DNA from: Deuterostichococcus epilithicus
Taxonomy: Eukaryota > Chlorophyta > Trebouxiophyceae > Prasiolales > Stichococcaceae
DNA length: 64,000 nucleotides
Assembly: GCA_033439295.1 (NCBI GenBank)
Contig: JAVTLE010000016.1
Span: 124,001 to 188,000 of the forward strand
Direction of reading: 5' to 3'
A program made the translations under genes and the position numbers. The stretch's first letter is position 1; every line of letters begins with the position of its first letter. The notes below the pieces were generated by a model. It ran no database searches and was not told where the DNA came from. It saw only the letters and a list, made by a program, of their open reading frames with translations. This document shows, in pieces, positions 30 to 58,381 of the stretch.

Positions 30-3000
30 GCGCACTCTGCGGACCTCGCCGTCGGCCGCAAGCAGGGCGGACCCATACGGTCCAGGAAGCGGCAGGAGTC
101 GCAGAAGCGATGGGTCGACAGGCAGAGGGCAAGTGCCTCTGTGCTTCACAGGACATGTCACCAGCAGCTCACGCATGCCTGCCAGGCGTGCAGTGTGTGT
201 TCATTCCCTTCTGTGAGTAGTGGAACAGGCTAGCTGAAGAAGCTCTAGCTGTGCATGAGCAAGCCCACTGCATGGACTGCAAATGCCGTCCCGCAGGCGC
301 GGGTACAGAACACACAGGCGACCATCGAACAGCTGGAGGCGCAGATGAAAACAATGCGCCTCGCGGGCGCCTCGCTGACGCAGCGCAACGTATTGCTCGA
401 GGAGGCCTATGCTGCGCGGTCTCCCGGCGAGCCGGCGGCCCCAGCGGAGGCGCGGGCGGCTGACGCGACTGACCTCAGCGGCGCGGCGGCAATTGCCCCG
501 GCGGCGGCGGCAGGCAGCGGTGGCCCGCCGGAGTCGGCCACAGAATGGTCAGCCGACTCGTTGGCGGCAGCGGCGGCGGTGCCGCCTGCACGGCTGGACT
601 CGAATGGGGGGCCAGAGGCATGGTGGCTCACCGACAGGATACAGGTGCGGCGGGCTGCTGCCTGCCTGCTGTTGTCCCTTCAGTTGCGTGTGATGCGGCG
701 CGTGCCGCCCATGGCCGCATGAACTGCGCTTCCTTCATGTCGCCAGCGACTGATGAGATGTGCCTGCTAAGAAACGGTTTGAAAGGGATCGTGTAGAGGA
801 GGCATACACATGCGGTGGCGCAGGGGCAGATGGCACAGGAGCTGCTGCTTGACCGCGAGCTGGTCTTTACTGTGCGACGGGACGCTCCATTGCGCCTCAC
901 TCGCGGCCAGGTGTGCTACCTGCTTCTTACCTCCTTTGCAGTCCTGGCCGTTTAGGTGCCCTGCGCACCTTGGAGCAACTCCGGACGAGCTGCAGCCTGC
1001 ACCGGTAGCCGGGAAGCAGGTATCTCGAGAAGGTGTTGCGAGACGGTCAAGACAGCACAGAGGTGCGCGCTCCCGTGCCTGCACAACAGGATCGTCGTTT
1101 GAGATGTTCTTTTACAATGTTGCAGGTGCCGCAGATGACGCCGCAGGAGCATGGCAAGCTGTGGTACGACTTCATTGTGGAGTTTGCACACCAGCTTCTC
1201 CTGGTCCATGGCGGCGGCGCCGCCGCGGCTGCTGCCAGCGCCCGCCTCGAGCGCCTCGTGTTCGAGGCCAGCCAGGTGGGAAGTCGGTCTGATGTCGGGG
1301 CATCATCGGCTGTTCCAGCGCTGAAATAGCTTGATGGAGTTGACCAGCTCCTGCCGAACAGCGAGCCCATAAGCGAGTCGGTTGCTGACCTGCTCCGCCC
1401 ACTTACGGTGGATCCTTAGGTCGAGCGCATGGCAGATTCGGCATCAGGTGAAAGTCGCAAAGTTGACGTCGTTCCTGCCGGCCTGCGCAGCTCAAGGGCA
1501 GCACCATCACCACGTTCCCGGACCAGAACAAGATCCTGCCGCTGCTTGGGTTTGCGGTTGACGACCCTCCAGACGAGACCTGGGCGCAGGCGAGGCGACT
1601 CCTCTCGCTTGTGTGAACTCCCTTTCAGGCCACGCATAGCCCATCTGCGGCGTGTGTGCTCATGTCCACTTGACTCACCCATTCTTGCCAGACACCCGGC
1701 CATGTCGCCGCGCAGCTGGGCATGTGTCTTGGCGGTCTCGCACAGCGGGCTAGGTGCACTGCGCGGCTCCCCGCGGCTGCGGCCACGGCGGCGGCAGCCT
1801 CCGCTCTGCCTGGCGTGCAGGACCTTTCCTGAGCACTCGCAACCACTCCCTGTGCCGCAGATCGTGTCGACGGCGCGGCTGAGCCCGCTGCAGCAGCAGG
1901 TGGTGGTGGAACTTCGAGCTGTCCACCTGGAGAACATGCGGACGCTCGCAGCCCGCCGCAGGGCGCGCGTCACAGAACTGGAGGTGGGCCTCTGAGCGCA
2001 CAGCTGACAAACACTCAAAACATTGCACCCAGACACATGGGGACTCGCTCGGTCCCCTGCACAGAGCGCATCCCTTGTTCTGGTCGGAGCGGTCAGCGCA
2101 GGGGAGCTGCCTAGCGGCTGGCATTGCCGCGAGTCGCTGCGGGGCCACCTGCTCGGGGCTGAGACGGCAGTCGACGTCTGTCGTCTTGCGTCATGCAGGC
2201 GGCAGGGCCTCGCCGCAGCAGCCTCGATGCCGAGTCAGTGGAGGTTGCCAGGGAGCCCGCCGTCGAGCCGCGCACTTTGAGCCTCATTTCTCGCCTGCAC
2301 GAGGCGCTGCGGGAGGAGCAGTCCTGCCAGTTGCAGGTGGGGCTCGAACTAAGTAGGAAACACATTGCGGCGCTGCCCTTTGGGATGCATGCTTCGGGCC
2401 AGGTTTTGGCCACGAAGCAGGAAGCCAACGGACAGGGTTTGGATCTGGCAGCAAGTTCAGGACCCGCTTTGGATGGCCTCGCTGAGACCAGTCTGCTTGT
2501 GTCCCAGCTAAGATACCTGCGAACATGCTTCGGGTGGTGAGACTCTCTGTGTTCGGTGACACAGTTCATCCTCACGCTGTGGCGGCGGGTACTCACACCG
2601 CTTCAGGTGCAGCCACCTTTGGCCGATGACATCCCCAATCTAATCCGGAGCTCATAACATGTTGCCGCATACATGGCCAAGACCGATGCTGCATGCCACT
2701 TGCTGACTGACTGGCTCGAGACGCATGTTCCTGGATTGCCCGCTCCTGGTTTGCACCGACACATCGATGTGGCGCAGAAGACGCTGCACCTCTCGGAACA
2801 TGGGCGCCTCATCGGAACCGTCCCATCGCCTCTCTGTTGTCTCGAAAATACAGCAACAACATTCTAACAAACCCGCAGTTTGCGCACCTGAACGTGGCGG
2901 CGTGGCCGGCGCACACGGAGCTGCTGCGCATTGCGGAGGTGGTGTCGCGATCGGCGGGGCAGCCGCCAAGTGAGGCCATCCTGGCACAAGGTGCCCCCTT

Positions 3001-3841
3001 TTCACCACCGCCCGTTGACATGTCAAGAGACACAAGTCCTGGTTTGCAAAGCGACTCTGGCATCGCAGAAGCGGCTGGATGGCATCCTGACGCGAGGTGT
3101 TCTTCATCTGCTCACCCCCCCCGACCACCACCACCACCTCTGGTCTGCACTGCCTGCTGCGGAGGCGTTGGATTGGCTGAGGCTGGGGCAACAAGGCCGT
3201 TTTGGCGCGCTACCCTTCCCGTCTCCTTCCCCACAGTCTTTCTCTCCCGCAGCCCTCCTTGCATCACTGGTTTGGAACGTGACGTCGGAACTGAGCAGCA
3301 GCCCCACCAGCATGAACGTCCTGGCGGGAGCAGGGGATGGATTTCCCTGCTGCCCAAGACAGCAACTATCTGTTCTGCCACTCCCTTTGCTAACTCGGAT
3401 GTTGGCCAGTGATCCAGGTTGTTAATCTAAAATGTCCTTTCGCTCGAGGGCCTGAGGCTGTCACTGTGGGCCGTGTTACGCCGGCACACCCTTCTGAGGG
3501 GGCAAGGCCATGCCCTGGTCGAGCAACTTGCCTTCAGCAAGGACCGAGTGGATTGACAATCAGCGCACTGACATCGTCTGGGCTGTGCAGGCGACGCAGA
3601 CCCGGACGCGCGGTTACAGTCGCTGGAGGAGGTGCTTCCGACTTCCATGCGGCAGTTGCGGGTGCCGGACGCGGACCTGCCCACGCTGTACCCGCACCTG
3701 CCGCCTGACGCGCTGGTGCTGGCGCCGTCGCTGGCGCGGGACTCGTTCGCCAGCAGCAGGGGCAGCGGCAGCTTCGGTGGCGGCCGATCGTCTCCCTCCA
3801 ATAGCGGCTGCGACCGTACCAGCTCTGGCTTCTCGGCCTGA
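30..3841 (+). CDS. bZIP transcription factor 1 with long C-terminal module (5' end outside window)
   Basis: Predicted DNA-binding regulator acting in the nucleus. Resolved exons: 30-128 (basic region), 297-644 (zipper plus an Ala-rich linker ending in a WWLTD motif), 824-910, 1126-1275, 1861-1983, 2199-2336, 2565-2606, 2879-2990, 3591-3841 (stop). One exon between 1276 and 1860 is present but I could not fix its frame. Every exon has a counterpart of equal or similar length and phase in the next gene, which is the main support. The basic region reads RKRQESQKRWVDRQR and continues directly into RVQNTQATIEQLEAQM. At the position of the invariant bZIP Asn this copy has Arg, so DNA specificity may differ or be lost. 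The first visible intron (129-296) uses a GC donor. The C-terminal module (exons from 1126 on) matches the tails of the kinases at 44-58 kb. Earlier exons lie left of the window. Confidence 0.85.
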
Positions 3842-5126: not shown

Positions 5127-8100
5127 ATGGGCGGAACGGACGATCCGCTGCCTGGGTGGGGCCAAGCCATGCGAGAGGAGGAGCAGGTGCATCCGTCGGA
5201 GGCTGACCGTGACTTGCGGCTGGCACTGCCATCAGACCTCCTGGAGCTCGGATCAAGTGACGAGCTACCTCCCGGCGGCCAGGAGGTGCGGGCTCGCGCT
5301 CAGCTCCACACGCAAATCTGACGTGAACTCGGGGCTCGCCTAACTTACGTAACATGCTGCCTAATTGATGTGTTAGCGGGGGGCCAAATTGCCAATCAAA
5401 CAGTGCAAAACTCCAGATGCGTGGTTCAGGCTTCGCCTGACTCTTCTTCCGCGAACCTGCAGGATGCAGCCTTTCCCTTTGGGCTCGACGATGCTTTCCT
5501 ACTGCCCACGCGCTTCGTCAGCGCGTCAGGGTTCGGTGCGGAAGGGCCTAGCCCGCTGCCGCTGCCATTGCCGCCACCGCAGTCTCCGCAGCATGGCGGC
5601 GCACCAGCGCTGCGGCGCGTTGCGAGCGCCGGCGCCGCGCCCGGCACTATCCGCCGACTCAGCGGCACCGGCACAGCATCGACCTTTCGCAGTGCTTCAG
5701 GCACACTGCTGGATGGCCAGGTGCCGTGCTTGATTGGTCCAGCTTCACTGCAGCGTCAGACACTGCGCCGGGTGTCCTAGTGTTGATGCTCCTGTGCTTT
5801 CTGGAACACCTGCGGCTGCGCAGTAATGTCAGGATATCACAGTCTCTGCGAAGTTGTGCCCTCCTCAGCCTGAGCTCGCCCTTGCCTTTGGTCGCAGCAT
5901 TCGAGCCATGAGCAATTGCACCTTGTGCAGGTGGGCCAGGCGGCTGATGCGGGCCGGCTGGCAAAGGTCCGGCGCACGAACCGGGTCTCGCAACAACGGT
6001 GGCGCGCACGTCACAAGGTGAGCATGATGATGAGAAGTGACATTCCAATGGACCTGCTGATCGATTGAGATTTACTCAACATACTAACAATGCCATAGTT
6101 GCATTCTCAAATGCAGTGCCACGTTGTATTGCACAGCCCACTTCTGGCTGTGTCTGTCAGGCTGGTGCTCTGCAAAAGGGCATGATAATGGTGTTGGTGC
6201 CCAAGCTTGTGCAGGCTACATTCAGCGTGCAGACATGTCAGAGGCCTCTGCTGCCCATGCTGCAGGAGCGAGTCCAAAACAACCGCCAGCAGGTCGCCAG
6301 CCTTACGCAACTGGTAGGGGAGATGCGGCTGCAGCAGGTGGGCAGACTGCTTTTCAATCTACAGATCTTTAGTCATCAGTAGCAACCATCAAATTGCAAC
6401 TGTATGTGCCGTGGCACGTCCGTTCACGATTTGATCTGGAGGGGATGGCATCTCCGGCACCTGCATGCTCTATGGGATGGGGGCTGTGATCCGCGCGTGG
6501 GGACATCTGACACTGCTGTCGCAGGGGTGTGTAGTAGGATAGTCACTGGGAATACTCACTCGCGTGCGGACAGCATGAATGCACAATCCAGCCACTGCGA
6601 CATGCGCGATGTCGTTTCGCCCTTGTGCATGGTTTGTTGCTAAACATGGGCTGACCCTTCAGGACTGGCGCCTGTTGCAGGGGCTGCTGGAGCAGCGGAA
6701 CGCGCTGCTGGAGCACACCTTCGAGATGAGCCAGGCGGCAGCGGCAGCCGATGCCGCAGCTGCGCAGGCGACCGACCGTCACAGATCTGGCGTCGAGACG
6801 TGTGCCACAGCGTGGTGGCTCACGGACGACATGCAGGTTTGTTCCTTGAAACCTGCATATCTGAGCCAAAGGCGGTCTGCCGGCTATGTGCACCTAGCGG
6901 ACCTCGCCGACGAATAGCACATGTGACAACCGTACCGAAACCTTCTCTGCTTGAGTGGCTTCGACTGCTTGCTGCCACCGCTGTCATCGTGCCTGTCGCC
7001 GCTGCGCCGCCACCGCCGCTGCAGCAGCGGCGGCAGCGTGTCAAAGTTACAATGCCGGCGATTGTAGTGGCCTGCTCGAGCCTCCTGCTGCTCATGGCCT
7101 GCTCGTGCACCGTAGCGTAGCAGTCTATAACGGTTCCGCTTCATTCCGTTACAGGAGCGCCTGCAGGAAGAGCTGCAGCTTTCGGGTGACATGCTGTTCA
7201 CTGTCGGCCCGGGCGCGCCCCTCCAGCTGAACCAGCTGCAGGTCACCAATTATCTCGAATGTGTCCATTCGATGACCTGCCAGCCACCTGCTGCGCTCTG
7301 CTGCTGCTGTGTCCTACCATACTGGTAGCGGTCTTGCCATACTGGGTGTCGTCATGCTGCCATACGTCAAGACCATGCGCCTGCGGTAATGCCAATGCGC
7401 GCACACCATTCTCGTAACTTCGCGGTCCCAACGGCACACAGGTGGCTGCGCTGCCTCACCAGCAGTATGGGCGGTTGCTCCGGGATTACGTCGAGGCCTT
7501 CGCACACCATCTGCTGCAGCGCACGGCGCCGCTCAACGAGTGGACTGCCGCGGAGGGCGACGCGCGGCTGGTGAGGGCTTTGACACTGAGCTGGCGCTGT
7601 CGCGGTGCCGCTGGCCGCCGCCCGTCGCAGTCAGCAGCAACGCCTTGTGCCACGGATTCATTCAGTCATGTGGGAGCAGAACACTAGCCTTCAGTGACTG
7701 CTGTCGGGGGGAGGGGATTTGCTCGCCATGGTGCGATGGATGGCGCCCGGGTGCGATGGATGGCGCCCGGGTGCAGTCCTGATGCCTGGCGGTCGGTCAA
7801 CCCTAAACCCTACACAACCTGCGAGTCCACCAAAACCTGCGGTGCAGGCAGCACAGCGGCTATGACACTGTTTGTGAAGTATAACCCAACATCGTGCCTT
7901 TTGAATCACAACACAGTATCGTGTCCAGGCTGAGCTGGTGCTGGAGGCGGGGCAGCTGAGAGCAATGCTGCTGCTGTCATTCCCGGACCAGCTGGCCGCG
8001 CTGCGGATGCGGCAATGCCCCCATGCCGCGGCTGCGCCGGAGCCTGCCTCCGCCAGGCACGAGGGCTGGATCCAGGTGTGCTGCCTGTCGCGCGCGGCGG

Positions 8101-9449
8101 CAGTGGTGACGGGACTGGCACAAGGCTGGCAGGCCATGTCGCAGCGCTCCCATGCCGCAGCCTGCTCGCCCACAGTTCCATGCTGCTCAGCCGGCCAGGT
8201 AAGCAGCCTCCACCTCCAGCCGAAGGTCTGATGCTCATATGTGTCCCCGCCGTGCTTTTCAGGTGGTGGAGGCATTGCAGCTGACGCCGTGGCAGCGGGA
8301 GGCGATTGTGCGACTCCGATCTGCATTCCTCACCAACTTGGCGTCGTTCTCGCGGAACCGGACCGTGCTCACCTATCGCCTGAAGGTGAGGCCGCTGCAG
8401 TTTTTGCATCATCCGGCCTCACACGCAGACGTGCGCCGCAGACCAGGTCGCCGGCTCTGCAAGGCCTGCGCTGGAGCGCTCAACCCTGCAGCTCGTCGTT
8501 CAAGACCCATGCTGTCCCAGTGCCTGGGTGAGTCCCAGTGCTGGGGGCGGGCCCTGACGTCAGTGCGGCCCCGTTTCAGTGATGTGTAGCATTATGGAGT
8601 TTCTGGGCCCTCGAAACTGTGACGCTGCCGCCTGCAGGCCCTGGCGCCACTGCCTCCGCCCGAGCAGCGAGACGCAACCGCGGCGGCTGGCGCCGCGGCC
8701 GCACTCAGCCGCCAGCCGTCAGAGGACACTATGGCGAGGGATCACCTGGTGGCGGCCATCGCCGAGCTGCGGGCGTGCCTGCGTGATGAGCACTCCAACC
8801 TGGTGCAGGTAGGGTTCAGGGTCTGGCAGCAGCCGCCGGCGCAGGTTGTGCGATGCGGCACCTTCGCTCCCTGGCAATGCTGCCATCGGCAGGGCTGCAG
8901 ATCGTGTGGGCTGCGCCTTGCACTGCCTGAGCCCGGTCTGGAGCCCCTCCAGATGTCATGGTTGATGTAATGAGGTGCTTACGCACTGCAGGCGGTCCTG
9001 CTGCTGTGGCGCCGCATCCTCCTGCCGGCGCAAGTGGCGCACCTCTACGTGGCAGCCTCGCCGTGGCCACCTGACATGCTCCGCTTGGCGGAGACCGTTG
9101 CCGTCCAGGCGGGCCACCCCGACACCGCCGCTGCGCTTGCCCAAGGTGCGGCCTGCAGCAGCTGCTTCGAACCCTCCTGTAGGCACCGACTGCACGTCAG
9201 TAGCCGCTGGACACCAACGGCAGAGGCCACGAGTTTCGCCACGGATGCGTGTCCCTGTACAGCAGGCGTGATGCGGCGCAGGGGCCGGTGGCCGCTGCTG
9301 GCAGAGGCGCCACGTCAGTCGTTGGAGTGGAGGCCAGCATACAGGCTACCTAACCTGACAGCTGCCTTTCGTTTCTGAACGCAGTGCTCCCGGACGCTGA
9401 GCTGCAACCGTTGGACGCACAGCTCCCGCCGGGCGCTGACCTCCTCTAG
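5127..9449 (+). CDS. bZIP transcription factor 2 with long C-terminal module
   Basis: Nuclear DNA-binding regulator, tandem paralog of the gene to its left. Exons: (5127)-5285, 5463-5720, 5931-6017 (basic region), 6266-6337 and 6663-6836 (zipper, then AWWLTDD), 7155-7241, 7442-7570, 7929-8075, 8263-8385, 8638-8808, 8992-9145, 9385-9449. Phases join without a break to about 541 residues if translation starts at the first in-frame ATG (5127); an upstream spliced start is possible. The basic region shows the canonical N-x7-R as NRVSQQRWR, followed by a coil with Val/Leu/Met heptads through RVQNNRQQVASLTQL. The region after the zipper is predicted helical and contains ALQLTPWQREAI, LLLWRRILLPAQVAHL and VAASPWPPDMLRLAE, in the order seen in plant TGA/DOG1-type bZIP tails; that resemblance is inference. 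A telomere-like CCCTAAACCCTA lies in the intron at 7571-7928. Confidence 0.88.
7735..7774. repeat. 20-bp direct tandem repeat, two copies, in a bZIP-2 intron
   Basis: The unit GTGCGATGGATGGCGCCCGG occurs twice in direct succession, followed by a partial third start. It lies inside the intron between exons 7442-7570 and 7929-8075. No function is evident. Confidence 0.8.
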
Positions 9450-26100: not shown

Positions 26101-28036
26101 GGCTCCGGCAGGGATCGGACTTTCTTGCTTTTGCCGCAGCGATTGCTGATCTAGATTGTTCTTGTGCTTTGTCCGCAGCTCCTGCGACGTGGTGACCATC
26201 AACTGCCCGCTGCACGAGGGCACCAAGGGTCTCTTCAACAAGGAGCTCATCGGCAAGATGAAGAAGGGAGCCTACTTGGTACGCTTTCTGTTCTGCACCT
26301 GAAAGTACGCCAGCATCACTGCACACGGTCCTGCCGAGTGAAAACAAGGGCCAAACTACCACGACCAGATTGGCCAAACGAAAGAAGAACGCATGCCCAC
26401 CAGTATCCTGTCCTCCTGTGTTGGCAACCATCTTGAACTATGCGCGGCGAGGGCGGCCTGGTCGACTTGCGCAGGTGAACACGGCTCGCGGCGCCATCTG
26501 TGACACCGAGGCAGTCCGGGAGGTAAGCTGAACTCCTGCCATGCGTGCGCATGTTATCAATGCAGCGTCAGCCCTTTTGTCTCCATGTCATCAAATGCCC
26601 GATAACGCCTCTTCTTCATCTTCTCTGTGCAGGCGCTGGAGAGCGGCCACCTGGCCGGCTACGCAGGTGCGGTCACAGTAAGCTGTGCAGGAGCATGTCA
26701 GTGACAGTCTGGTTGCTCAGACCGCAGCATCGCGAGCATTTGCACGTGCATCAGTGCCCTGGTAGAGGTGCGAACCGGCAACTGAGAGAGAAGCGGCACC
26801 TATTCCCCTCCTGACACGCTGCGCAGGTGACGTGTGGTACCCGCAGCCGGCGCCGAAGGACCACCCGTGGCGCAGCATGCCCAACCAGGCCATGTGGGTT
26901 TATCAAATCAATCAAACGATCAATGGATGGTTGTTGGTAGCTTGATTTGGCGCTGCTGTTGATGTTGCCATCTTCTGGACCTGATTGCGGCCATGTCCAG
27001 TGCTGGCCTCATCAAGCATGCTGTCATTGGTGCCTGCAGGACACCCCACTACTCTGGCACGACTCTGGATGCTCAGGTGCGCGTGGCCTCTGCGGGTTGG
27101 GTTAGGGTTGAGATTATGGTCGTGTTCCCACGCATGCCTTCTGAAGCATTTAACTGCACACGCTTGGGCACATCTGCACTGCCATCGGCGCCGCAGGCTC
27201 CTTGCGCATGTCACAGTTCACGATTCACTGCTCCTGGCGGCAGCCGCAGCGGCACGCGGCAAGGAACCCGCGTACAACCTGGACTTAATGCTCCGGTGTC
27301 CCAGTATCCTCAAGCTCAAGCTCGAGCTACAACTTCACTGCTCGACTGATCTGCAGGCTCGGTACGCAGCCGGCGTCAAGGACATCCTGCAGCGCACATT
27401 TGACGGCAAGGACCTGAAACCTGCTGACATCATCGTGAAGGAGGGCAAGCTGGCGCCGCAGGTGGGCTATCTATCACAGGGCCGATCAGGCACCGGCACC
27501 GGCTACAAAACCGCTTTACCGACTGATGACGCCTGCCTGCAAGACTGGTTGAATTCCACCTGTGCTCGCTGGGAGGTCGTGCTGCAGGTTACGGTGCCGT
27601 CGTCGGTGCAGGGTTTCGCGACCCCAATGTCGTATTCGTTTTGGCGGGTGATTCCGGGCAAACGTTTGCTGTGAGGGAGGAGAAACCTAATTCTCACCTG
27701 TGATGGCTGCAGTACGACAAGGCAGCCAAGAAGGAGGAGCGCAACCTGAAGCACGAGCCCGGGTGCGCATTGCATGCATATCCCCTTCCCCCAACCCCCC
27801 CTCGCCGCGCGGGGGCCGCCTGGAGCGAGCGGCCGGATGATCGCCGAGTTGGCTGGTCATCTGCCCGGTGCTGTGCACAAATATCCCGCTGTTGTTGCCT
27901 AAGATCAGTCTGCCAGGGGTATACTTTGCGCAATGCACGCACCTGCAAGCGTATCGCTGTCTCCTGCCCTTTCAGGTGGGAGAGGCAGGCGAAGAAGCAG
28001 GCCAAGGATAAGACTGCCGGCCAGACGCTGTCCTGA
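23171..28036 (+). CDS. FDH: NAD-dependent formate dehydrogenase, organellar
   Basis: Oxidises formate to CO2 with NAD+; plant orthologs are mitochondrial. Sixteen exons: 23171-23266, 23473-23612, 23832-23976, 24141-24254, 24642-24716, 25002-25078, 25276-25354, 25806-25909, 26179-26278, 26475-26522, 26633-26666, 26827-26893, 27040-27076, 27357-27461, 27713-27762, 27976-28036, all GT-AG and phase-consistent, giving 443 residues. The N-terminus [18 protein letters not shown] is a likely targeting peptide. Family signatures: [46 protein letters not shown], the Rossmann glycines [10 protein letters not shown] followed by YYDY (the Asp selects NAD+), [12 protein letters not shown], catalytic Arg in [27 protein letters not shown], and the Gln/His pair in [15 protein letters not shown] short Lys-rich C-terminal extension follows KLAPQYDKAAK. 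Divergent from GPAT. Confidence 0.97.
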
Positions 28037-42982: not shown

Positions 42983-44064
42983 ATGGCGCAGCAGCTGTTG
43001 ACGTCCTGCCTTTGTAAGAGCACGGGGTTGGAGCTCAAGGGCAAGCCCAAGTTTCAAGGCGGGTTACCCCTCCGATCATGCTGCAATTGTGCACTGCCTG
43101 ATCTGCACCGCCGTGCATCCTCGATGCTGTGCGCACTTGCATGAGCGGTCATTCGATCGCAGGCTCATCCAAGGTGCTTGCGTGCTTTGGTACCTTGAGC
43201 ACACACTGGTCTCGCTTGCTGGTCTCTGATTTGAGCGTGCTCGTTTGCGTCGCAGTCCTGTGCCACTGCAAGATCTGCCAGAAGCTAACGGGGTCAGACT
43301 TTGCGCACAACATGGCTTATGCGCCTGACCAGGTACGCCCAAGCGATGTAGAAGCCATCGTAGCATCCTGGGTGATTGTGGACGACAGCTCCAACATCCG
43401 TGCTACTTCACAAGGAGGATGGCGTGCCATGCTTTTCGTTGCATGTTCATCAGACTGCCCTCGCCGCGCGCAGGTCACCGTGCGGAAGGGGGAGGGCAGC
43501 TTCATCAAGTGGAACACGTCGGAGAGCCTGACGCGATACAACTGCAGCACCTGCGGCGGCTACATGATGGGCGACAAGACGGGCGACGACCCTGTTGTGG
43601 TGCGCTGTGGATCCAGTGCGGCATGAACCTCCTGTGCGGCTTTCATCGTGGCTCCCGTCCACAGCTGCCTCCACCAGAACCCGGGTTTCTTCACAGCGGC
43701 ATCCTCTCAGCATTGGCAGGGTGCGAGGTGTTGAGACACAAATGACAACATGGGACTCGATTGCAAACTGCAGGCAGTGCCCGTCGGCACCGTTGACCGG
43801 TCAACGGGGCCGAATGACGGCAGCTTTGCCCCGCAGCACCACATCTTCTATGACACGCGTGTTGCAGACGTGCGTGATGACCTGCCGAAATGGTGCGCAC
43901 AAGGACGCATGGCGAGCAGTCAACATAGACAGCTTCCGGGCGGGCGAGGGTTTCAAGTAGTCATGGAGTGTTCAGAACCCGATTCCGTCGCCCCTTCCAC
44001 CCTGATTGTTGGCGCTGCCATGTGCAGGGCTGGCTTCATGAAGGCCTCCGAGAGGCTCGGCTGA
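42983..44064 (+). CDS. GFA/CENP-V-type zinc-binding protein
   Basis: Member of the glutathione-dependent formaldehyde-activating enzyme fold (CENP-V/GFA); most members have unknown substrates. Exons: 42983-43058, 43256-43332, 43474-43599, 43774-43892, 44028-44064, giving 144 residues, a full-length domain. Zinc ligands are visible in SCLCKSTG, CHCKICQKLTGSDF and YNCSTCGGYM. The end DDLPKWAGFMKASERLG matches the usual family tail. The short last exon is confirmed by its conservation in the pseudogene copy. The first intron has a GC donor (CAAG|GCGGGT at 43059), where the pseudogene has GT. Possible link to one-carbon metabolism with the FDH gene in this window is speculative. Confidence 0.88.
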
Positions 44065-44505: not shown

Positions 44506-47500
44506 TCACGTGCAATGTCGGCACCGCTCTAGGGCCAAATCCCCGCACGCAATGCCATCAAGCATGCGCGGCCACGCCGCCACCTGCTCATAATGAACAA
44601 GGGTGCCAGATCATCAGCATGGCGCCCACACATAATGGCGGGGCAAACATGCCAGCCTGCAATCAGCACCCGCCTGCAAAGCCAGATCCAACTCGAATCC
44701 GAACACGCCCAGAAATCGGTGCATGCGCACTGGAAAAGAGCGGCCACTCTTTGCTTTGAGCAGGGCATCACGCACCTCGCTCCGCGCATATTGCATCGGG
44801 GTCAGCAGGTCGCACACGATGTACACCTGCGCAGCACAGCCCGCGCGCACCTCGAACGCCGCGAGCAATCCCAGACGGACGCTGAAACTTCAACTGTCAT
44901 GGTGCCGCACCGCACCCGATCCTGCGCAGGATTTTCCCGGGTGCCACACAGGCAGCTGACCGCTAGCCCGGAGCTGGCGCCTGCAAAGGGGCTTCCAATC
45001 ACAGGTGCACAAGCGGCGCCGCCGGCCCACGGCGGGTCACCTGGAACAGGTGGTTGGCCTGGCTCTCGTTATGCATGTTGGTTCGCAGGTGCGTCGCTGC
45101 CTGCGCCGCCTCCTCAACGGCGTCCACGCTGTCCGTGGCCGCCAAACCCTGCAGCTTGGCGACCAGCTCGGCGCGCTCGCTGTGCAGGTGGTCAGTCCGC
45201 GCGCCCACCCGCAGCCGCGCCTGCGGCGGGGTTTCAGGGTGTGGAGTTCAGGGCTCAGCTCGGGGGATACTTGGAAGAGCACACGATGGCTGGGCAAGCC
45301 AGTTGGTCATCGGACGACTGCCAGCCTCGCCGTCTTGTCAAGCCCAGCGGCAGCGTGTGCGATGCAAGCCTGAATCTGATGACGGCCTGCAGTTTAGTAG
45401 TCGACACAGAGAGCTGACAGAGCCGCCTCCCCGAGCCCGCTCTGGGCGCCGTACTCTGCTGGGTTCCCCTGCAACTCAAGTCAAACAGGCGCGAGACCTG
45501 CTCCCAAGGTGCTTGCTAGGCTTGCTCACCTCGGCATACGCCTCCAGCTGCTCGTCTGTAAGCTGCATGGCAGCCAGCACACGTTCCCACAGCCCCTGGT
45601 CCGGCGATGGCCGCCGCGCCGTCTGCTTTTCTGTCGCATACTCATCCACTTCCTCTGCAGCAGCGGAGACGGCGACTACGGCAGCCCCAGGGTCGCCCTC
45701 TGCAGCGGCGGCGGCGGCGGCGGCGGTGTCGCCGCCGCCGCCGCCGCCAGCGTCGCCCGCGCTGCCATGGTCGGGGTCGCTGCCGCCGCCGGGCCCGTTG
45801 CTGGCGCTGCCGCCGGCGCCGCCGCGCACCGCTGCCGGCAGGCTGTCGACCAGCTTGCCCAGCTCGTTCACGTCCGTGAAGCGGAGCTCCTGGAACACCC
45901 GTGTGCTCATCTTGAGCTGCGCGGCGGCAGAACACGCTCGTCAGCAGCGCATCAATGCAGGCGTAGCACAGGGTAATCGTGACGCACATCGACAGGCGCA
46001 GCAGCGACACCCTAGGCGAGGGCGCGGTGGCTCGACAGGAAGATGGGGAGAGGCTGTGGGCCGTGCGCCACTCACGGGGCCACACGCCGCGGGGACAACA
46101 TACAGGCGGGACACACTTAGAGTGCCGACCTTGGTGCAGTAGCAGGGCAGGAAGTTGGCTATGAGGTCCTCCAGGCGCCGGCGCTGCGGGCTGCCGGCAT
46201 CCTCGATGTCTGCGTGCTCCAGCAGCGCCCGCAGCTGCTCGACCATGATGGAGTAGGACTTGCCTGCGCGCGGTGGGGCGGTGCCACGACAGTCGGCGGG
46301 CCGCAGCCTCCTCGGACCACGCAGGCCGCTGCTGTGCCGGGCCCAGGCAACACAACCCTCGCACACTCGAGCACAGGCACCAACACACGAGGCGCGTGTG
46401 CCGCCGGAGGTCGCAGCAGGGTCTCGGGGAGGGGTGCACGGGTGACTCGCCGTCAAAGGGTCGGATGCCCTCCACAACACTCTCCAGCGGCGGCTCTGCA
46501 GGCGGCAGCACGCGAGTCTTCACCAGGTCTGCACCCGCCTCCCGTGACATGAAATGCACAAGTCCAGGCAGCACCATGAGGTTGCCGCCACGCACGAGGC
46601 GCCGCGCCTCCGCAGCCCGTGGGCGGGCAACGTCGGACTGCAGCACCAGGGCGCCCGGCAGCCAGGGGCGCTCGAGGCAATGCGCCGCACCTCGGTAGCC
46701 GGCGGCAGCAGCTCCTTCCGGCCCTCCATGGATGCAGTAGTTGCACTGATTGTACAGATGCTGCAGGCGGATCCTGTCGTCCTGCAGGATGGCATCCTGC
46801 AGGTGCAGAGAACGGACCTGGGTGCTGCTCGAACGCAACAGTACATGGTCTGCCACCGCCTCAGGGCGCCACCTTGAACCCCGGCGCCGGGGGGACGTGT
46901 CGCCGCCCTGCAGCACACGGCGGGCTGGGACACGCCGCTGACAGCCGCAGCCTCGCGCAGAGGCATGCTCGAGAAGGGTGCGCAGCCCACATGGCGCGGC
47001 AGCCGCAGCCAGGCACAGCATGATGCGGAACCAGTGCGCGGGGCGGTGTGGCGACTGACCAGTGCCCTGCCGCGGCCGAGGTGGCAGCCGCTGCGGGGTT
47101 TAGGGTTTAGGGTTCAGGGCGCGCCTCGCAAAGCGCAAAATGCACACGCGCGTGTCAGTGGAAGTGAAGTGGAAGCAATGATGAGACCTCCTGCGCCGCA
47201 CATTGGCGCCGCTGCCGGTACCAGAGCCAGCGGTGGGCGTCCGCAGCGCCGCCACTGAGCAAGCCAGACACCTTTGATTCCTCAAAGGCCCCGGCACTTG
47301 CATAACGAACCAAACCAAGAAAACCCGCACCTCGGCGCCGTTGCCGGCGACAGAGTCGGTGGAGTGCGGCCGCGGCTGCGGCGCGTCCAGCGCGGCGGCG
47401 TCGCCCGCAAGCAGCGCCGCGATGGCGGCGGCGGTGGGCCGCGCGCGCGGGTTGCGCTCCATGCAGGCGGTGATGAGGTCCGCAACGCCCTGGGGGCACT

Positions 47501-50500: not shown

Positions 50501-51277
50501 AGTGCACGCCAAGGCGGCGCGGGGCCGGGAGCGCCGCCTGCTGCGCACCGCTGTCGGGCGCGCCGCCGGCGCGGAGGCCGTGNGGNTGNCGNGCTGNTGG
50601 NGNGGGNCGGCGGCGCCAGCTGTGTGCGGCGCCGCTGACGTCGACCGCATCTGCATCGAGTCGCGCGTCTCGTCTGCAACCCGCCCCGCCTGCTGCTGCT
50701 CCTCCGGCTGTGGCTGCACCTCAGCAGGCCGCCGCCGCTGCTGCTGCTGCTGCTGCTGCTCCTCGTCGAGCCGCTGCTCATGCTGCTGCTGGTCCGCGCG
50801 CCGCCGCTCCCGCTGCCGCTGCGCCTCAGCTCGAGCAGCTGCCTCCTCGGCCTGCGCCAGCTTGTGCCGCCGCAGGGCCTGCCGCACGGGCAGGCTGCCG
50901 GCGGCCGGCAGCGGCTCGGGCGGCCCTAGGGCCTCGGGATCTCCCTCCTCCGACGCCGACAGCCACTCCCAGCACCGGTCCACGCTCGTGCTGCCGCCGC
51001 GCACGGCGTCATGGAAGGGGGACCGCACCGCCGGCGCCGCCGGGCGCCGCCGCACCTGCGGATCATGGTCCGGGTGCCCAGCCTGCGGCTGCGCGGGTCC
51101 AGCTGGCAGCTGCGGCGGCGGCTGCGGCAGCGGCTGCGGCGGCTGCCAGGCCCCCTGCCGGCGGGACCGCAACCACAGGGCGGCTAGCGCCGCACTGGCA
51201 CCGCCCGCCGCTACAGCTACGGCTGCGAGGGCGAGGTACTGCCTGGCGTGGCTGCTGCCGGCGGGCTGGTCCGCCAT
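44506..51277 (-). CDS. Membrane-anchored TKL-like protein kinase 1 with bZIP-shared C-terminal module
   Basis: Exons in transcript order: 50127-51277, 49814-49891, 49503-49567, 49242-49358, 48726-48850, 48346-48455, 48189-48207, 47794 to about 47912 (start unsure), 47331-47511, 46451-46796, 46130-46263, 45530-45916, 45041-45220, 44776-44826, 44506-44583. The N-terminus has a hydrophobic segment LALAAVAVAAGGASAALAAL, then a CWEWLSA motif and long Gln/Arg/Ala-rich linker. Kinase domain: LGAGHFGQV, VPVAVKVF, SFRKEIALLRKC, HIVHLDLKTPN, AKIGDVGLARF, APEVLM, VDVFSYGVMLWEIVTG. The catalytic HRD is HLD and DFG is DVG. The tail includes LTPMQYARSEVAAWP, shared with the bZIP genes. One intron is GC-AG (donor at 46450). 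Exon 1 changes frame across a run of N bases (50583-50607), probably a sequence fault. Confidence 0.85.
47096..47120. repeat. Interstitial telomere-like motif in a kinase 1 intron
   Basis: GGTTTAGGGTTTAGGGTTCA, about three TTTAGGG units, in the intron 46797-47330. Shorter telomere-like pairs occur at 7801-7812, 30357-30366, 55401-55419 and 61071-61082. Confidence 0.85.
50583..50607. other. Cluster of ambiguous bases (N) inside kinase 1 exon 1
   Basis: Eight N bases interspersed in 25 nt of GC-rich sequence. The coding frame upstream (residues from MADQPAG to about SAAPHTAGAA) and downstream (GTVPLEDLRLYHHPDG) differ, so the number of bases here is probably wrong. Confidence 0.85.
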
Positions 51278-52342: not shown

Positions 52343-55300
52343 TCATTGGTGCGCTCCCGCTGTGGAGTCTGCGCCCGATGCCGCCGGCTTGCGGTCTGTC
52401 AGGATGAGGTCGCCAACTGCAAGAGCGTCCATCATGCCTGGGAACGCCGCTGTCTCTGCGCGGGCCCACTGGACGAGCTCGGCCAGCTCGGAGACCAGCC
52501 AGATCTGGTACTGGGTCAGCTCCTGCGGTCACACAGACTCCATGTCAGGCTCCCCGCTCGCGACCCGGATGCACCGCACCAGGCCTGGTCTGGGATGCTG
52601 TCCAGGGGACACATATTTACAATTACTGCGATGCACGACGCGCCAGCAAAGCCGCACCGTGGACCACAACTCAGTTTGAACAGAACCAGCAGGGACGAGA
52701 CACAGGGAGATGGCTCACCCTGGTCTCTGCCGACATGTTGCGCTGGAGGGCGACGCTGGCCTCGACGGCCTCTTCGTATGCAGCGGGGTCGCTCTGATCG
52801 GAGAAGCCCTGTAGCTGCTTGAATAGGTCCTTCCTTGCGGTCCGCAGCTCCTTCAGGCGCCTGTTGACGCGCACCCGGGCCTGCACCGCGGCAGCGTGCG
52901 GCTGTGACCCGCCGGGAACGCGCTCCTGGCTCGACTTGCTTCAGCAGTTGCTGGACGCACGATGCGCAGGGGCAGCGCAGCGCAGCGCTGCCGGACACAA
53001 CATCCTCGAGGACTGCATCCGGCACAGCTGTCAGCAGCACATAGCAGAAGGAGGCATCATTCGATTGACCGGCCAGCCAGCCAGCCAGCCAGCCGCAGCC
53101 AGGGCAGGAAAGCTTCCAGGGGCCAGAACCCTACGTCCGCGATGGCGTCCCGCTGCTCCTGGCTGAGCCGCAGGGCGTCGAGCACAGCCCGCAACGCCTT
53201 TTGGTTCTTGGGCCCCCTGATGTAGGCGGCGGCGTCGATGGCGTACTCGTCGCGGCTGCCCTGCCGCGGCTCCAGGCCCGAGGAGTTTTCGCTGCAGGCG
53301 TCGCTGCCGCTGCTGTCAGCGCCGCCCTGCGATGCCCCCGGCACATGTCGCATGCTGGGTCAAGTGCCTCGCAGCTGCTGAAGATAGGAGCGATTGCTGC
53401 TGCAGTCATGAAGTACCGGCTGCAGTCATGAGAAACCGGCATGGCTGGGGTGTTGCCGCTTGGTCACCGCCGCAGTGCGAATGCTGTGTGGCGGCGGGGC
53501 GCCAGTAGAGTGACGATGCGGCAGGGGCGACACTGCTGGCCGTGGCATGGGATATGGGGCGGGCAGGTCGTCAGGACTGCAGCAGCGATGTGGGGTTTTG
53601 TGCGCACCACAGGCATGGCGTCCATGAGCTTGCCCAGCTCGGCCACGTCAGCATACCTGTGAGCAGGGACACCTGAGGTCATTCATTCATTCATTCATTC
53701 ATTCATTCATTCATTCATTCATTCATTCATTCATTCATTCATTCATTCATTCATTCATTCATTCATTCATTCAGCCGCACCTGATGTCCTGCAGCATGCG
53801 AGAGCTGAGCCGCAGCTGCGCATGGCAAACAGTCAGCGTCAGCAACCTGGGCGAGTTGAAGTAGCTCGCGGAAAATCTGCAACATCGAGACGACGAGCCG
53901 CAGACGACCACGCGGTCGTGCACGGCAGGACGAAGCATGCCTCAAGCAGCAGTGCCGCATATGGGGAGGTACCCATAGCCGCATCCCAGCAAGATGTCTG
54001 CTGACAGCGTCTTGCAGCCAGCTCAAATTTGACCCTGCCATGCTGAAGCCGTCCGAAACCTCACCTTGGTGCAGTAGACTTCCCGCAGCGACTCGGCAAG
54101 CTCCTCTAACCGGCGGCGGGGTGCGCTGCTGAAATCCTCGATGTCCGGGCTGCGCAGGCACTCCCGCCAAATGTCCACCAGGTCGCCATAGCTCTTGCCG
54201 TCATATGGCCGCGAGAAGTCGACGATTCTTTCCAGCGCCGGGTCTGCGGCAAGAAGATGCCGGGCTGAGGCACGCACGGCGGTGGACTAGATTTGCGCCT
54301 TGGTGAGTTCCTGCTCACGGGCGGCGCCAAGGGCTCGGTGCGCCTGCGCTGCCTGCACTCCCTGCAGGTGCTGGTTGAGGCATGTCTCACGCAAACCCCC
54401 TGCGCCGGCTGCGACTTCCTGCAGGCAGGTGCTGGTCAAAGGTAGATCCGCCCCAAACCCCCCTTTCGTTCTTGTGGTTGGGTTCCAGTGCCTGGCATCC
54501 CGCCGCCCAACAATCGCCTCGTCAAGCTTGATACAGCCAGCTGAGGGTGCACACGTCAGAACTCGCTTCCTCAGCCAAGCAGCATCAGCCCAGCAGCATA
54601 TGCCTTGTCCAGAAAATCACATCGATGGAACAGGCATTTTGGACCCATGCAGCGTTGGCTTTGACAGCAACGTTCCTCAAGTGGCAGCAAGGCGGTGAGC
54701 GCCGCCTGCGAGCACGCGCATCCACACCTGTGTAGCCCATGGCCTCCGCCGCTTCGAGGCTGCCATACAGCAGGATGTTGCATCCCCTGTAGAGTCGCTG
54801 GAGGTGGAGCCTGTCTTCGTGAGTGATGACCGCCTGCAGAGTGAAGGAGGGAGCTGTTAGCAACATGCGAGCTGCAATTCGATGGGCTGACCAACGCCCA
54901 CATGCTTGCCAAGGATCGCATGCCCACGACCTAGCGTTCAGCGGTGGTACGGCTTGACATGCACATATATGTCACAGCCGCCGGGCAGACCATGCTGTGC
55001 CCTGCCACCATGCCAGTCATCACTCTAGCAACTGCACGGCTGCGCACGGCAGGCCTCACCGGGTCGCTGGTGGCATGCTCGTAGTGGGTCGGCCGCGGCG
55101 CGTTCAGCGTCGCGGCGTCGCCCGCCAGCAGCGCAACGACCTCCGCCATCGTCGGCCGTGCAGACGCCTTGTGCGCCGTGCAGGCCTTGACCAAATCTGC
55201 GACGCCCGCTGGGCAGTCCTCGGGAACCCTGCGCCGGTGCAGAGAGCACAATCACGATCACACGCAGGGCTGTTGCTGCTAGCAGGGGTGCCACCACGAC

Positions 55301-58300
55301 CAGCTGAGGCAGGCTGTTGAGGCTTGCATGCTGCTGCGGTGCGGCAGTGCGGACAGCGCCGAAACAGCTGAGTCAAGCCCTTGCGGATGTGGCGCCGGCC
55401 TTTAGGGTTTGGGGTTTAGCGGTCAGGAGGCTGAAATACTTCCTGCACTGACATATTGCCGCTGGAACGGCTGATGTCATCACCTGAGGGGTCGCATCTG
55501 GCCTCTTTTTGGCGCCTTCCCGGTTATGATCTCCCAGACAATGACGCCGAAGCTGCATCGACAGAGACAGCCACATTGCCGGCGGGCAGGAGCTTTTTGT
55601 CACCCTTTCAAGCATTGAATGCAGAAGCAAGCAAGGACAGCTCGCGAATGCTGGTCGTGCAAAGGGTGCCATTGCGCACCCATAAACGTCAACTTTGCTC
55701 CCTGCCTGCTCTCCCATTAGAACCTCGGGAGCCTACGCGGATCCACCGCAAGGTCGTGCTTTTCAGGCATGATTCTTTCAAGACCCAAGATGTATGTCGC
55801 TTGAATGCCACTGGAGCAGGCGTGCAACCATGCACTGCTGCGCACGCCGACGGGTTTGCGGTTGCCGGAACCTCTTTGTCAGGCGCAGCGAGCACAGCGG
55901 CAGAGTGACGATTTGAGGTGCCTCCCCTCAGATCAGGCATTGCAGGGGCGGGCTGAGTGGCGCACCGCCCAGGCGAACGTGCCGACGGCGGCCTGGCTGC
56001 TGAGGTAGTCGTTGGGCATAAAGCGCGCCAGCCCAACATCCGCGACCTTGGCGCTGTTGGTCGACGTCAGCAGCACTGCGCCGCACATAATGCGACAGAG
56101 CGTCAATCATCGTTGCAGTGCGATGCAGTCGAGCCTGCGCGTGATGATTGTTCTTTTTGCGTGCACCAAGAGCAGCATGAGCCGACAGTCGCTGAGGCTG
56201 TGGCCCCAGGTTTGCATGGTCTGGCTTGGCAGCACGCAGCAGCGATTGTTTCCAGTGGCAGCGTGCCGGCCGCACCGTTGGGCGATTTCACGTCCAGATG
56301 CACAATGTGCTGTGCGTGCAGGAACTCCAGTCCCCGCGCAATATCCAGCGCGATCTGCTTGCCCAGGCCAAGCCGCCGCTGCCCATTGGCACCCCCGCCC
56401 CTGCGGGTAGAAGCGCCGGGCAAGTGGAGCACAATTACAGCGCAAAATTGACCAGCACGACTGCGAACAATGGTGCCCATTCCACCGGAACCCTACGTAA
56501 GAAGTTGGCTGCTCTGGAAGCGACAGCGGCGCAAAGAACCAGCAGCAACTGTCAGACGCTATGCCCCCACGTCATGGCGCACAGGGCGCTGTGCACGACT
56601 GACGGGATGTGGAAGCGCATGAGGACGAGCAGCGGGAGTCCGACCTCCGATACCACTTCAGGGCACCGTCCGAATCTGCGTTCAGCGCAGTGCGCAGGTC
56701 TCCGTTGCTCATCAGCTCGAGCACCATGAGCAGGTGGCCGGGAGCATCCAGGCAGGCGCCTCGGAAGCCCACGACATGCTGATGCTGGCATGCCCTGAGC
56801 AGCTCGATCTCCTTCCTGAACCCCTCCTGTCGTGCATGACCGTGCACAAGTTAGGGCGGCAATCCACGATCCGCAAAGGTGCAGGCTGTGCCCGCCATGT
56901 GGGTGGCTGCGCGGACACAGGCTGCTGGCACCGTCACGGATTATGACTGGGCAGCACACGCTGATTGTGCAGCGAAAATGGCAGGACCGTGCTTGCGACA
57001 CAATACTGACTGCTCCTGGATGGACAAGCGTTGACAAGAGGATAGTCACCTCACAGCTTTCCCTGGTCGCATCGTCCAGGCGAAACACCTTACAGGCCAC
57101 ATCCTCGTTCTGGTACCGCGCACGGAAGACCTGGCAATAGCATCGGTGCACACGACTCAAAAGCAGCTCAAGTGCATTGCCTGACTGCCCCTGAGCGGCA
57201 CCAGCACAGCCGCGCAGCCATACATGCAAGCTTGAATCCAACGCGATGCGGACGGCCAGACAATTGCCTACATGCAGCCAACCACATGTTGTGTCAATGC
57301 TAACCTGGCCAAAGCTTCCGCGTCCGAGACAGCTCGGGGCGCCGTCCGGGCGGCGGTACAGCTGCAGCTCGTGCAAGTGCACGCAGCCCTCGTCCTCGTC
57401 GCACGCGTCCGATGGCGCATGGCGCCCCGCCGGCGCTGCAGGCGCCTGTGCTGCAGTGTCTTCAGGATCCGCCAGCATGCAGATGGCGGCGCCAAGCTCA
57501 GGGAGCGACACAGATGCGAGCGAGCGCAGCGGCCGGCCACCGCTGCCGTCCTTGCTGGGCGCAGAGCCACGGCTCAGCCCATTTCCAGCGCCGCCGCCGC
57601 CTGCGGGGCCGCCGCCGCCGGCGACGCCGCCGCCGGGCCGCCTCGAGGTGCTGCCATGGTGCTGGTGCAGAGGGCTGCTTTGTGGCAATCGCCCGCTGGC
57701 GGCGCTGCCGGACTGCTGACCGCTGGCGGTTGTGCCAAAGAGGCTGGCTGTCGACGGGACCCGCAGCGACGATAGGTTGCCCTCCGACATAGGCTCCAGC
57801 TGCCAGCCGCCGTCCGTCAAGCTGCTGCAGGATTGCGCCTCGAGCAGCCGGGCGCTGGCTTCTGGCGGTGCCGCCTGCGACGGCGTGCTCGTGCCTAGCG
57901 GATCGCTGACTGCCCGCACCGTCGCCGGGGCACCGCTGTTTGCGCAGGCCTTGGCAGGCACCTTCACCTCCAGCGGGCTGTCTGCGGGGCACGGCGCCTC
58001 CATGTGGCAGCTGAGAGTCGAGGCTGTGCCCATGCGGTTGCTGGAGCGGGCGGGAAGCGAGGGGCTCGACTCCACGCTGCCTGACGACGCGGTCCTCCCG
58101 GATGTCGTGCGGGGCACGGCGGCATCCGGGGCCGTCACCCAGTCCCAGCAGCGCCCTTCGGAAGCAACCGGATCGCCGTCCACGGCTGCAGTCTTAAAGG
58201 GCGACTCGGGCGGCGAGATGCGTCGCCTCGAGGATGGCAGTGGTGACCTGCCAGCGGAGCCAGGCTGCCGCTCCCGTGTCCGCAGGAACCACAGTGCAGC

Positions 58301-58381
58301 GGCGATGCTGGCCGTCGAGACTGCCACCGCGGCGACAGCGGCCGCGGTTTGCCTGCGGCTGAGGCCGCTTTCGGTCGCCAT
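52343..58381 (-). CDS. Membrane-anchored TKL-like protein kinase 2 with bZIP-shared C-terminal module
   Basis: Exons in transcript order: 57305-58381, 57050-57130, 56645-56826, 56276-56400, 55966-56075, 55680-55732, 55484-55552, 55060-55228, 54728-54833, 54065-54243, 53781-53815, 53611-53656, 53135-53326, 52719-52880, 52343-52522 (stop). All phases agree, 921 residues. N-terminal signal anchor TAAAVAAVAVSTASIAAALW, then CWDWVTA and a 300-residue Ser/Gly/Pro linker. Kinase domain: LGRGSFGQV, VACKVFRL, GFRKEIELLRAC, HIVHLDVKSPN, AKVADVGLARF, APEVLMG, GVIVWEIITG, CPAGVADLVKAC. HRD is HLD and DFG is DVG, as in kinase 1. The tail carries ELGKLMDAMP, LDALRLSQEQRDAIAD, RLKELRTARKDLFKQLQGF and a final helical exon ending in PGMMDALAVGD. 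Paralog of kinase 1 and cleaner in sequence; several exons have identical length (125, 110 nt). Confidence 0.9.
53681..53772. repeat. (ATTC)23 microsatellite filling a kinase 2 intron
   Basis: Perfect tetranucleotide array of 92 bp. The host intron (53657-53780) is 124 nt, so three quarters of it is the repeat; on the transcript strand the repeat is (GAAT)n starting 9 nt after the donor. Confidence 0.95.
55401..55419. repeat. Telomere-like motif in a kinase 2 intron
   Basis: TTTAGGGTTTGGGGTTTAG, one exact and two near TTTAGGG units, in the intron 55229-55483. Confidence 0.8.

Follow-up and report, generated by a model that had tools for sequence, protein, structure and literature searches.

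In a 64,000-nucleotide stretch of the genome of the green alga Deuterostichococcus epilithicus (assembly GCA_033439295.1, contig JAVTLE010000016.1, positions 124,001 to 188,000 of the forward strand; hereafter, the window), two tandem bZIP-like genes and two tandem kinase genes appear, from the comparison of their predicted proteins, to share one helical C-terminal module of 115-140 residues, placed after the zipper in the former and after the kinase domain in the latter. The core of this idea, which had been put forward in a first-pass annotation of the window, holds at the statistical level. The closest known thing, by description, is the SAK1 domain, which that annotation did not name, and the explanation that we favor, as a plausible and still tentative one, is that the shared tail is a SAK1-type docking domain, found here also on two TKL-like kinases that are of the non-RD type, probably active, and probably anchored to a membrane. 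On this best reading, a SAK1-type domain on kinases would represent a new architecture.

Evidence for a Shared C-Terminal Module

The first-pass annotation had staked the shared tail on a profile-profile comparison of the two protein classes, and this comparison gave a significant match. The profiles of the bZIP-pair and kinase-pair tails were aligned by hhalign with expectation (E) values of 1.3e-5 and 1.0e-5 (probability 80-82%, score 44.0-44.8, 113-114 columns); a score of 44.0 was reached by none of 300 column shuffles (best 23.5) and by none of 300 shuffles of 11-residue blocks (best 30.3), and reversed profiles scored 18.5-18.6. Single tails, each compared with the profile of the opposite pair, scored 41.3 (kinase 1), 26.0 (kinase 2), 32.4 (bZIP-1), and 33.9 (bZIP-2), and the decoys, 23 in-frame chunks taken from the remaining predicted proteins of the window, had top scores of 19.7 (bZIP profile) and 25.2 (kinase profile). 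The match was retained with E 0.0021 when the last helix of the kinases was left out, this helix alone giving E 0.013; without the two tail exons that had been added by hand to the gene models, E was 4.6e-4, with a probability of 33% and a score of 34.0, the highest score among 150 column shuffles being 23.4.

The module has two helix starts of the type LTxxQ, here called corners, which lie 78-101 residues apart in the window tails. Two-block profiles built from one class located the two corners of the opposite class at the expected places in all four tails (0/300 shuffles for each), the blocks having been picked after the alignment had been seen. When the LTxxQ columns were masked, the fit persisted with p 0.000 for bZIP-1, 0.043 for bZIP-2, 0.017 for kinase 1, and 0.000 for kinase 2, both corners being placed correctly in three of the four tails. 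These figures bear on the possibility that helices with LTxxQ-type N-caps and an Ala-rich composition have come to look alike without common descent. Such a convergence is illustrated by Spy, a chaperone of the bacterial periplasm, whose fit to the two-corner profile is in register (p 0.004-0.007) and depends on LTxxQ alone (masked p 0.858), and by CpxP (p 0.078; masked p 0.532), and it would also gain from the fall of the evidence to E 4.6e-4 without the hand-added exons. However, the signal of the algal tails outlasts the masking and exceeds both the column and the block shuffles, and we consider convergence improbable.

On the basis of hhalign, the alignment, and the intron map, the module extends over positions 1575-2944 in bZIP-1 (plus strand, residues 257-384, ends approximate), with four introns within it, and over 8061-9099 in bZIP-2 (plus strand, residues 361-499, ends approximate), with three. 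On the minus strand, it occupies 44536-45595 in kinase 1 (residues 828-942, ends approximate), in the pieces 45530-45595, 45041-45220, 44776-44826, and 44536-44583, and 52406-53200 in kinase 2 (residues 788-902), in the pieces 53135-53200, 52719-52880, and ~52406-52522. Structure prediction, applied to four single module exons in two alignments (each model being that of the first sequence of the alignment), returned helical models with a mean predicted local distance difference test score (pLDDT) of 85.4 and 81.1, the former value being that of the kinase 1 exon 45041-45220, which is predicted as two helices.

The similarity between bZIPs and kinases begins only at the first LTxxQ helix, from where it continues to the end. 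The first-pass annotation had also paired the upstream peptides YGRLLRDYVEAF with YGDLVDIWRECL and SFPDQLAALRM with ADVAELGKLMDAMP; these correspondences turned out to be insignificant (E 0.15-0.4, with 8 of 100 shuffles equally good), and the upstream half was rejected as a part of the module. Its further claim, that phase-0 introns precede the LTP helix and again VAAWP in both bZIP-1 and kinase 1, was right about the phase and wrong about the positions. All the module introns are in phase 0, which is the commonest phase here (18 of 20 bZIP introns and 18 of 31 kinase introns). In alignment columns, they fall after 5, 46, and 103 in the bZIPs (and also after 117 in bZIP-1), after 22, 101, and 122 in kinase 1, and after 22 and 95 in kinase 2, the intron map revealing no position within the module common to bZIPs and kinases; one bZIP-1 intron lies inside LTPLQ|FAHLNVAAWP and not ahead of VAAWP. 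Since the intron positions differ, the shared phase was rejected as evidence for a recent transfer of exons between the two gene pairs, and such a transfer is not indicated.

Gene Models

The gene models were obtained with a self-trained, splice-aware Viterbi gene finder and were then corrected by hand through the comparison of paralogues. In its first pass, the gene finder merged bZIP-2 and both kinases with adjoining exons and missed several exons. Those added by hand include 30-128 and 2565-2606 in bZIP-1, as well as several exons of kinase 1, among them its last (44506-44583); 2565-2606 and 44506-44583 are the two tail exons left uncalled by the gene finder at its default settings. Exon 5 of bZIP-2 was extended by hand, and in kinase 2 the exons 57050-57130, 55680-55732, 55484-55552, and 53781-53815 were added or extended. 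Unconfirmed GC-AG introns were accepted, with donors at 129 and 1590 (plus strand, bZIP-1) and at 46450 (minus strand, kinase 1), and the kinase introns measure 74-534 bases in the models. The window holds 13 Ns, 8 of which (50583-50607) fall within the first exon of kinase 1 and leave its low-complexity linker partly uncertain.

Nine of the peptides quoted in the first-pass annotation were found in frame in the DNA, that is, YGRLLRDYVEAF (7466-7501), SFPDQLAALRM (7977-8009), ALQLTPWQREAI (8272-8307), and VAASPWPPDMLRL (9049-9087) on the plus strand for bZIP-2, and YGDLVDIWRECL (54190-54155), ADVAELGKLMDAMP (53652-53611), ALRLSQEQRDAIAD (53176-53135), RLKELRTARKDLF (52859-52821), and AFPGMMDAL (52447-52421) on the minus strand for kinase 2. 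On the other hand, no single frame contains LTPLQFAHLNVAAWP or LTPMQYARSEVAAWP; they arise only after splicing, each needing one hand-added exon (bZIP-1 2565-2606; kinase 1 44506-44583).

The tail exons of the kinases might, in principle, belong to separate genes or be mis-spliced. The absence of transcripts, the intron lengths, the GC donors (one in kinase 1, two in bZIP-1), and the initial gene fusions and missed exons would all be in agreement with such an artefact; nevertheless, the two paralogous kinases exhibit largely the same series of exons, in the same order, down to the stop codon, and 115 of 289 aligned residues of their tails are identical, so that we regard an artefact of this kind as very improbable.

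The Tandem Kinase Genes

Kinase 1 and kinase 2 are tandem genes on the minus strand (51277-44506 and 58381-52343), modelled with 18 and 15 exons, respectively, and having the same layout according to the gene models and Pfam, that is, an N-terminal hydrophobic segment, a low-complexity linker, a TKL-like kinase domain, and a C-terminal tail. The kinase domains (~50150-47331 and 57331-55060, minus strand) match Pfam PF07714 with E 4.7e-49 and 2.5e-48, respectively, and are identical to each other at 173 of 268 aligned residues. The best sequence matches of kinase 1 in the PDB are CTR1 and MLK4, and it is on these matches, from the kinase 1 search, that the TKL assignment rests. As read by eye, both proteins keep the catalytic Lys (AVK/ACK), the Glu of the C-helix, the Asp and the Asn (HLDLKTPN/HLDVKSPN), and the APE motif; in terms of the usual motif names, HLD stands in the place of HRD and DVG in that of DFG, with the catalytic Asp kept. 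These features suggest that both are probably active, non-RD, TKL-like kinases.

In each of them, an N-terminal hydrophobic segment is followed by basic residues. The segment of kinase 1, YLALAAVAVAAGGASAALAALWL (51170-51238, minus strand), precedes RSRR and has a Kyte-Doolittle 19-residue maximum of 2.0 and Wimley-White means of 0.07/0.15; that of kinase 2, TAAAVAAVAVSTASIAAALWFL (58283-58348, minus strand), precedes RTRER, with a Kyte-Doolittle maximum of 2.04 and Wimley-White means of 0.11/0.09. Both kinases are probably anchored to a membrane by this segment. In signal-anchored proteins of organelle outer membranes, as described in PMC4010795, the Wimley-White hydrophobicity is below 0.4 in most cases and at least three basic residues stand just after the segment; the values of 0.07-0.15 and the basic residues found here fit this rule.

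A GAAT (TGAATGAA) tandem repeat is present at ~53680-53776 (minus strand) in an intron of kinase 2, directly before the exon bearing ADVAELGKLM.

The Tandem bZIP-Like Genes

The bZIP-1 and bZIP-2 genes are in tandem on the plus strand (30-3841 and 5127-9449), and 101 of 259 aligned residues of their tails are identical. The bZIP-1 model, derived from the gene finder and curated from bZIP-2, is cut at its 5' end by the start of the window and has 10 exons (30-128, 297-644, 824-910, 1126-1275, 1491-1589, 1861-1983, 2199-2336, 2565-2606, 2879-2990, and 3591-3841); the bZIP-2 model has 12 (5127-5285, 5463-5720, 5931-6017, 6266-6337, 6681-6836, 7155-7241, 7442-7570, 7929-8075, 8263-8385, 8638-8808, 8992-9145, and 9385-9449).

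The signature of a bZIP basic region is N-x7-R-x9-L. In bZIP-2, whose basic region and zipper were read from the sequence at 5931-6734 (plus strand, end approximate), N-x7-R is present and is followed by N at the first zipper position, with the heptads N-L-M-L-L (by eye); Pfam bZIP_1 reaches 13.8 bits (E 0.063), under its cut-off of 27.6 bits, and a PDB search with the zipper region found no bZIP. In bZIP-1, the corresponding region (30-413, plus strand, end approximate) is degenerate, R and V replacing the N and R of N-x7-R, the heptads are T-L-M-L-L (by eye), and no Pfam bZIP match was obtained. In this tandem pair, the basic region thus looks intact in bZIP-2 (exon 5931-6017) and degenerate in bZIP-1 (exon 30-128). 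It is possible that bZIP-1 acts as a partner that does not bind DNA.

A second block, of the form AWWLTD...FTV...APL.L...Q, is conserved in both proteins between the zipper and the tail (bZIP-1 618-910, bZIP-2 6810-7241, plus strand) and was not noticed when the kinases were inspected by eye.

A Decayed Fifth Copy and the Surrounding Genes

Beyond the kinases, a decayed fifth copy of the tail, of the kinase type, lies at ~60891-61267 (start set by eye) on the plus strand, that is, opposite to the kinases. It was recognized in the six-frame translation by the hidden Markov model of the kinase tails (independent E 0.025 at 61154-61267), by tblastn with kinase 1, the match of which at 60926-61228 runs across a stop (E 0.005, filters off), and by inspection of the sequence. 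The helix pieces of this copy occupy different frames, and its second LTxxQ (LTP-Q) corner contains a TAG in frame, after which comes DVAASPSLLSALGIGDTLVDE.

The genes located between the two pairs are unrelated to them: in the six pieces scanned, Pfam finds a 2-hydroxyacid dehydrogenase, a GPAT-type acyltransferase, and a GFA protein. The GFA (formaldehyde-activating enzyme) domain is at ~43474-43892, and the 2-hydroxyacid dehydrogenase, at ~23473-28036, resembles a formate dehydrogenase (by eye). Short telomere-like repeats of the plant type (CCCTAAA) were also noticed by eye in introns and near the decayed copy (~7801-7812, 47091-47120, 55401-55418, and 61070-61083); like the gene content and the introns, they point to a green alga.

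Discussion

According to PMC4067076, SAK1 is a key regulator of the acclimation of Chlamydomonas to singlet oxygen, and its domain, uncharacterised at the time, is C-terminal, about 150 amino acids long, mostly helical, weakly conserved, and shared by 37 chlorophyte proteins. A possible bZIP is present in 13 of these (in 7 of them below the Pfam threshold) and absent from 24, and one of the 37 has an mTERF; the listed genera have 3-14 such proteins each, the locus numbers of some Chlamydomonas genes are adjacent (Cre03.g179150/179200/179250), the top PHYRE match of the domain is CnrR, and distant SAK1 domains are reported in land-plant proteins, including bZIPs (PMC4067076). The 115-140 residues of the module of the window would fit this length, and four single exons of it are predicted to be helical. 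An association with bZIPs is found here (bZIP-2 with 13.8 of the 27.6 bits required, bZIP-1 through zipper heptads seen by eye), a trait that is not defining alone. As for kinases, none is mentioned among the SAK1-domain proteins in the sections of PMC4067076 consulted, and no kinase with such a tail was found in the literature searched, which is in line with what the first-pass annotation had stated.

If the tail is indeed a SAK1-type domain, we propose that it is a helical cradle for docking or dimerisation, the two LTxxQ corners of which would form a partner-binding face, by analogy with the C-terminus of TGA3. The kinases, held at a membrane and facing the cytosol, might use the module to pair with, or to share an adaptor with, bZIP-like regulators harboring the SAK1 domain, and these regulators might then be phosphorylated by the anchored kinases. 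The same source (PMC4067076) describes SAK1 as mainly cytosolic and as further phosphorylated (hyperphosphorylated) under singlet oxygen, the responsible kinase being unknown in that paper and its identification a hope of the authors. It can be speculated, as a rather far-fetched extension, that kinase 1 and kinase 2 belong to an unrecognised kinase family of the organelle surface, located on the outer envelope of chloroplasts or mitochondria and sharing the SAK1-type domain with its targets. They would then be the kinases so far missing from retrograde stress signalling, the ones by which cytosolic regulators with a SAK1 domain are phosphorylated. An outer-membrane anchoring, if true, would be well suited to a retrograde pathway, although the anchors may also lie in other membranes.

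A different possibility is that the homology is real and carries no functional link, the module being widespread among the proteins of this alga and each protein using its own partner, so that neither its occurrence on bZIPs and kinases nor their proximity would bear on pairing. The 3-14 SAK1-domain proteins per listed genus, some of them with neighbouring locus numbers (PMC4067076), would be in agreement with this idea, as would the unrelated genes that separate the two pairs and the wholly different module introns of the two classes, which imply either that the split is old or that the introns are. On the other side, the same two corners have been kept in both classes; on balance, we regard the lack of a functional link as somewhat unlikely.

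Several points weigh against the proposal of a SAK1-type module joining kinases and bZIPs, and they concern both the similarity and its interpretation. The pair that matches most strongly, which is bZIP-1/kinase 1 as anticipated in the first-pass annotation (hhalign E 2.3e-4), needs both of the hand-added exons, and the gene models as a whole have no transcript support. Little weight can be given to the BLASTP value of the same pair (E 2.7e-7), because it was obtained with the composition correction and the low-complexity filter off and includes Ala-rich linkers. The matches of bZIP-2 with kinase 1 or kinase 2 are weak (hhalign E 0.006-0.007), and bZIP-1 and kinase 2 gave no pairwise signal (BLASTP E 6.1, hhalign E 0.15). 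The cores of the kinase tails are 20-23% identical to that of bZIP-1, and kinase 2 has AEL at the site of the LTP or LLP of the other tails. When the four tails were used for a profile search of the PDB, neither TGA nor CnrR was retrieved, and the hhalign comparison of the tails with a profile of TGA2, TGA3, and TGA7, a narrow one of three sequences, was not significant (E 0.34-0.62). The membership of the tails in the SAK1 family would follow from description only, the membrane, topology, and organelle proposed for the kinases are guesses, and the association of kinases and bZIPs through the module, with the ensuing phosphorylation, is putative.

A kinase endowed with a domain of the type found on bZIP-like regulators would make possible a concrete and cheap search for kinases with SAK1-type tails in Chlamydomonas, Chlorella, and Coccomyxa. 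It would also open a way to examine whether the TGA/DOG1 tail of land plants and the SAK1 domain of algae constitute one old family.

Comparison with Known Systems

The first system to be compared is that of the TGA (group D) bZIPs, since the first-pass annotation had likened the tails to their DOG1-type region. Like the bZIPs of the window, TGAs have a bZIP followed by a helical C-terminus, the DOG1/NPR1-interacting domain (7tac, 7tae, 8gyz), with two LTxxQ corners 85 residues apart, and the TGA motif ILTTRQAAR and the LLTPMQYAR of a window tail are alike. In PMC9360754, the contacts of TGA3 with NPR1 are Glu263, Pro264, Thr266, and Asp267, together with Thr351, Thr352, Arg353, and Arg357, and the TGA3 C-terminus also takes part in dimerisation. 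By our own reading of the numbering, these contacts would correspond to the corners EPLTD and TTRQAAR (T266 and T351), at a distance of 85 residues vs the 78-101 of the window tails.

A stricter version of this likeness, according to which the tail is the DOG1/TGA C-terminal domain itself and the window encodes algal TGA-like factors and kinases with a TGA tail, can draw on the common order and spacing of the corners and on the block test. The two-block profiles fit TGA2 (0/1000 shuffles), TGA3 (p 0.016), and TGA7 (p 0.022), and the block of the last helix is best placed exactly at LTTRQ in all three (p 0.018, 0.055, and 0.058, respectively). Nevertheless, the first block is shifted by 8 residues from its register in each of the three TGAs, and masking LTxxQ changes the p values to 0.070 (TGA3) and 0.067 (TGA7). 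Pfam DOG1 (PF14144) gave no match at E up to 10 with the four full proteins and the four tail pieces, most matches above ~0.1 being dropped by the HMMER filters; the TGA2 control matched it at 2.7e-35 (residues 11-86 of 213). Moreover, no signal common to bZIPs and kinases is present in the upstream half, the part in which TGA2 has its Pfam DOG1 match. The assignment to DOG1/TGA was thus not borne out by the Pfam and profile comparisons, the block test being suggestive, and we judge the strict version unlikely. A deep relation of the module to TGA/DOG1 is possible, because distant SAK1 relatives are reported in land plants, bZIPs included (PMC4067076); a SAK1-type domain in these plant bZIPs would reconcile the SAK1 reading with the earlier TGA idea. 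As compared with TGAs, the window tails differ in having neither a Pfam DOG1 nor a TGA profile match, and bZIP-1 in its degenerate basic region.

PDB searches with the tails returned no match, or matches with E 0.07 or worse. The best NCBIfam match was the sll1863 family stress response protein (E 0.00063), with one of the four tails, and Pfam LTXXQ matched the bZIP-2 tail, again one of four, with E 0.0038 and 18.4 bits, under its cut-off of 24.3. Among viral contigs and contigs of prokaryote genomes (searched with the kinase tails only), to which the search was confined, pattern matches were found and none was confirmed as a relative. The likeness to Spy and CpxP, which belong to the LTXXQ family together with CnrR, a protein that we take to be of the same fold group, consists of helical structure and of a pair of LTxxQ helix starts, separated by 73 residues in Spy. 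These proteins, however, are bacterial and periplasmic, and the similarity is gone once LTxxQ is masked, which makes of them an analogy only.

The likeness to the SAK1 family, as this is described in PMC4067076, is the closest: in both cases the domain is C-terminal, poorly conserved, and probably mostly helical, it accompanies sub-threshold bZIPs, some members of the family have neighbouring locus numbers, and the CnrR hint there may have a counterpart in the marginal LTXXQ match of the bZIP-2 tail here. This is a likeness by description and not by sequence, and the partners described for the SAK1 domain are bZIP (13 of 37) and mTERF (1 of 37), with no mention of a kinase in the sections of the source consulted. 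Lastly, CTR1 and MLK4 are the TKL kinases that the kinase 1 domain matches best in the PDB; the kinases of the window differ from them in having HLD and not HRD, DVG and not DFG, an N-terminal hydrophobic segment, and the helical tail.

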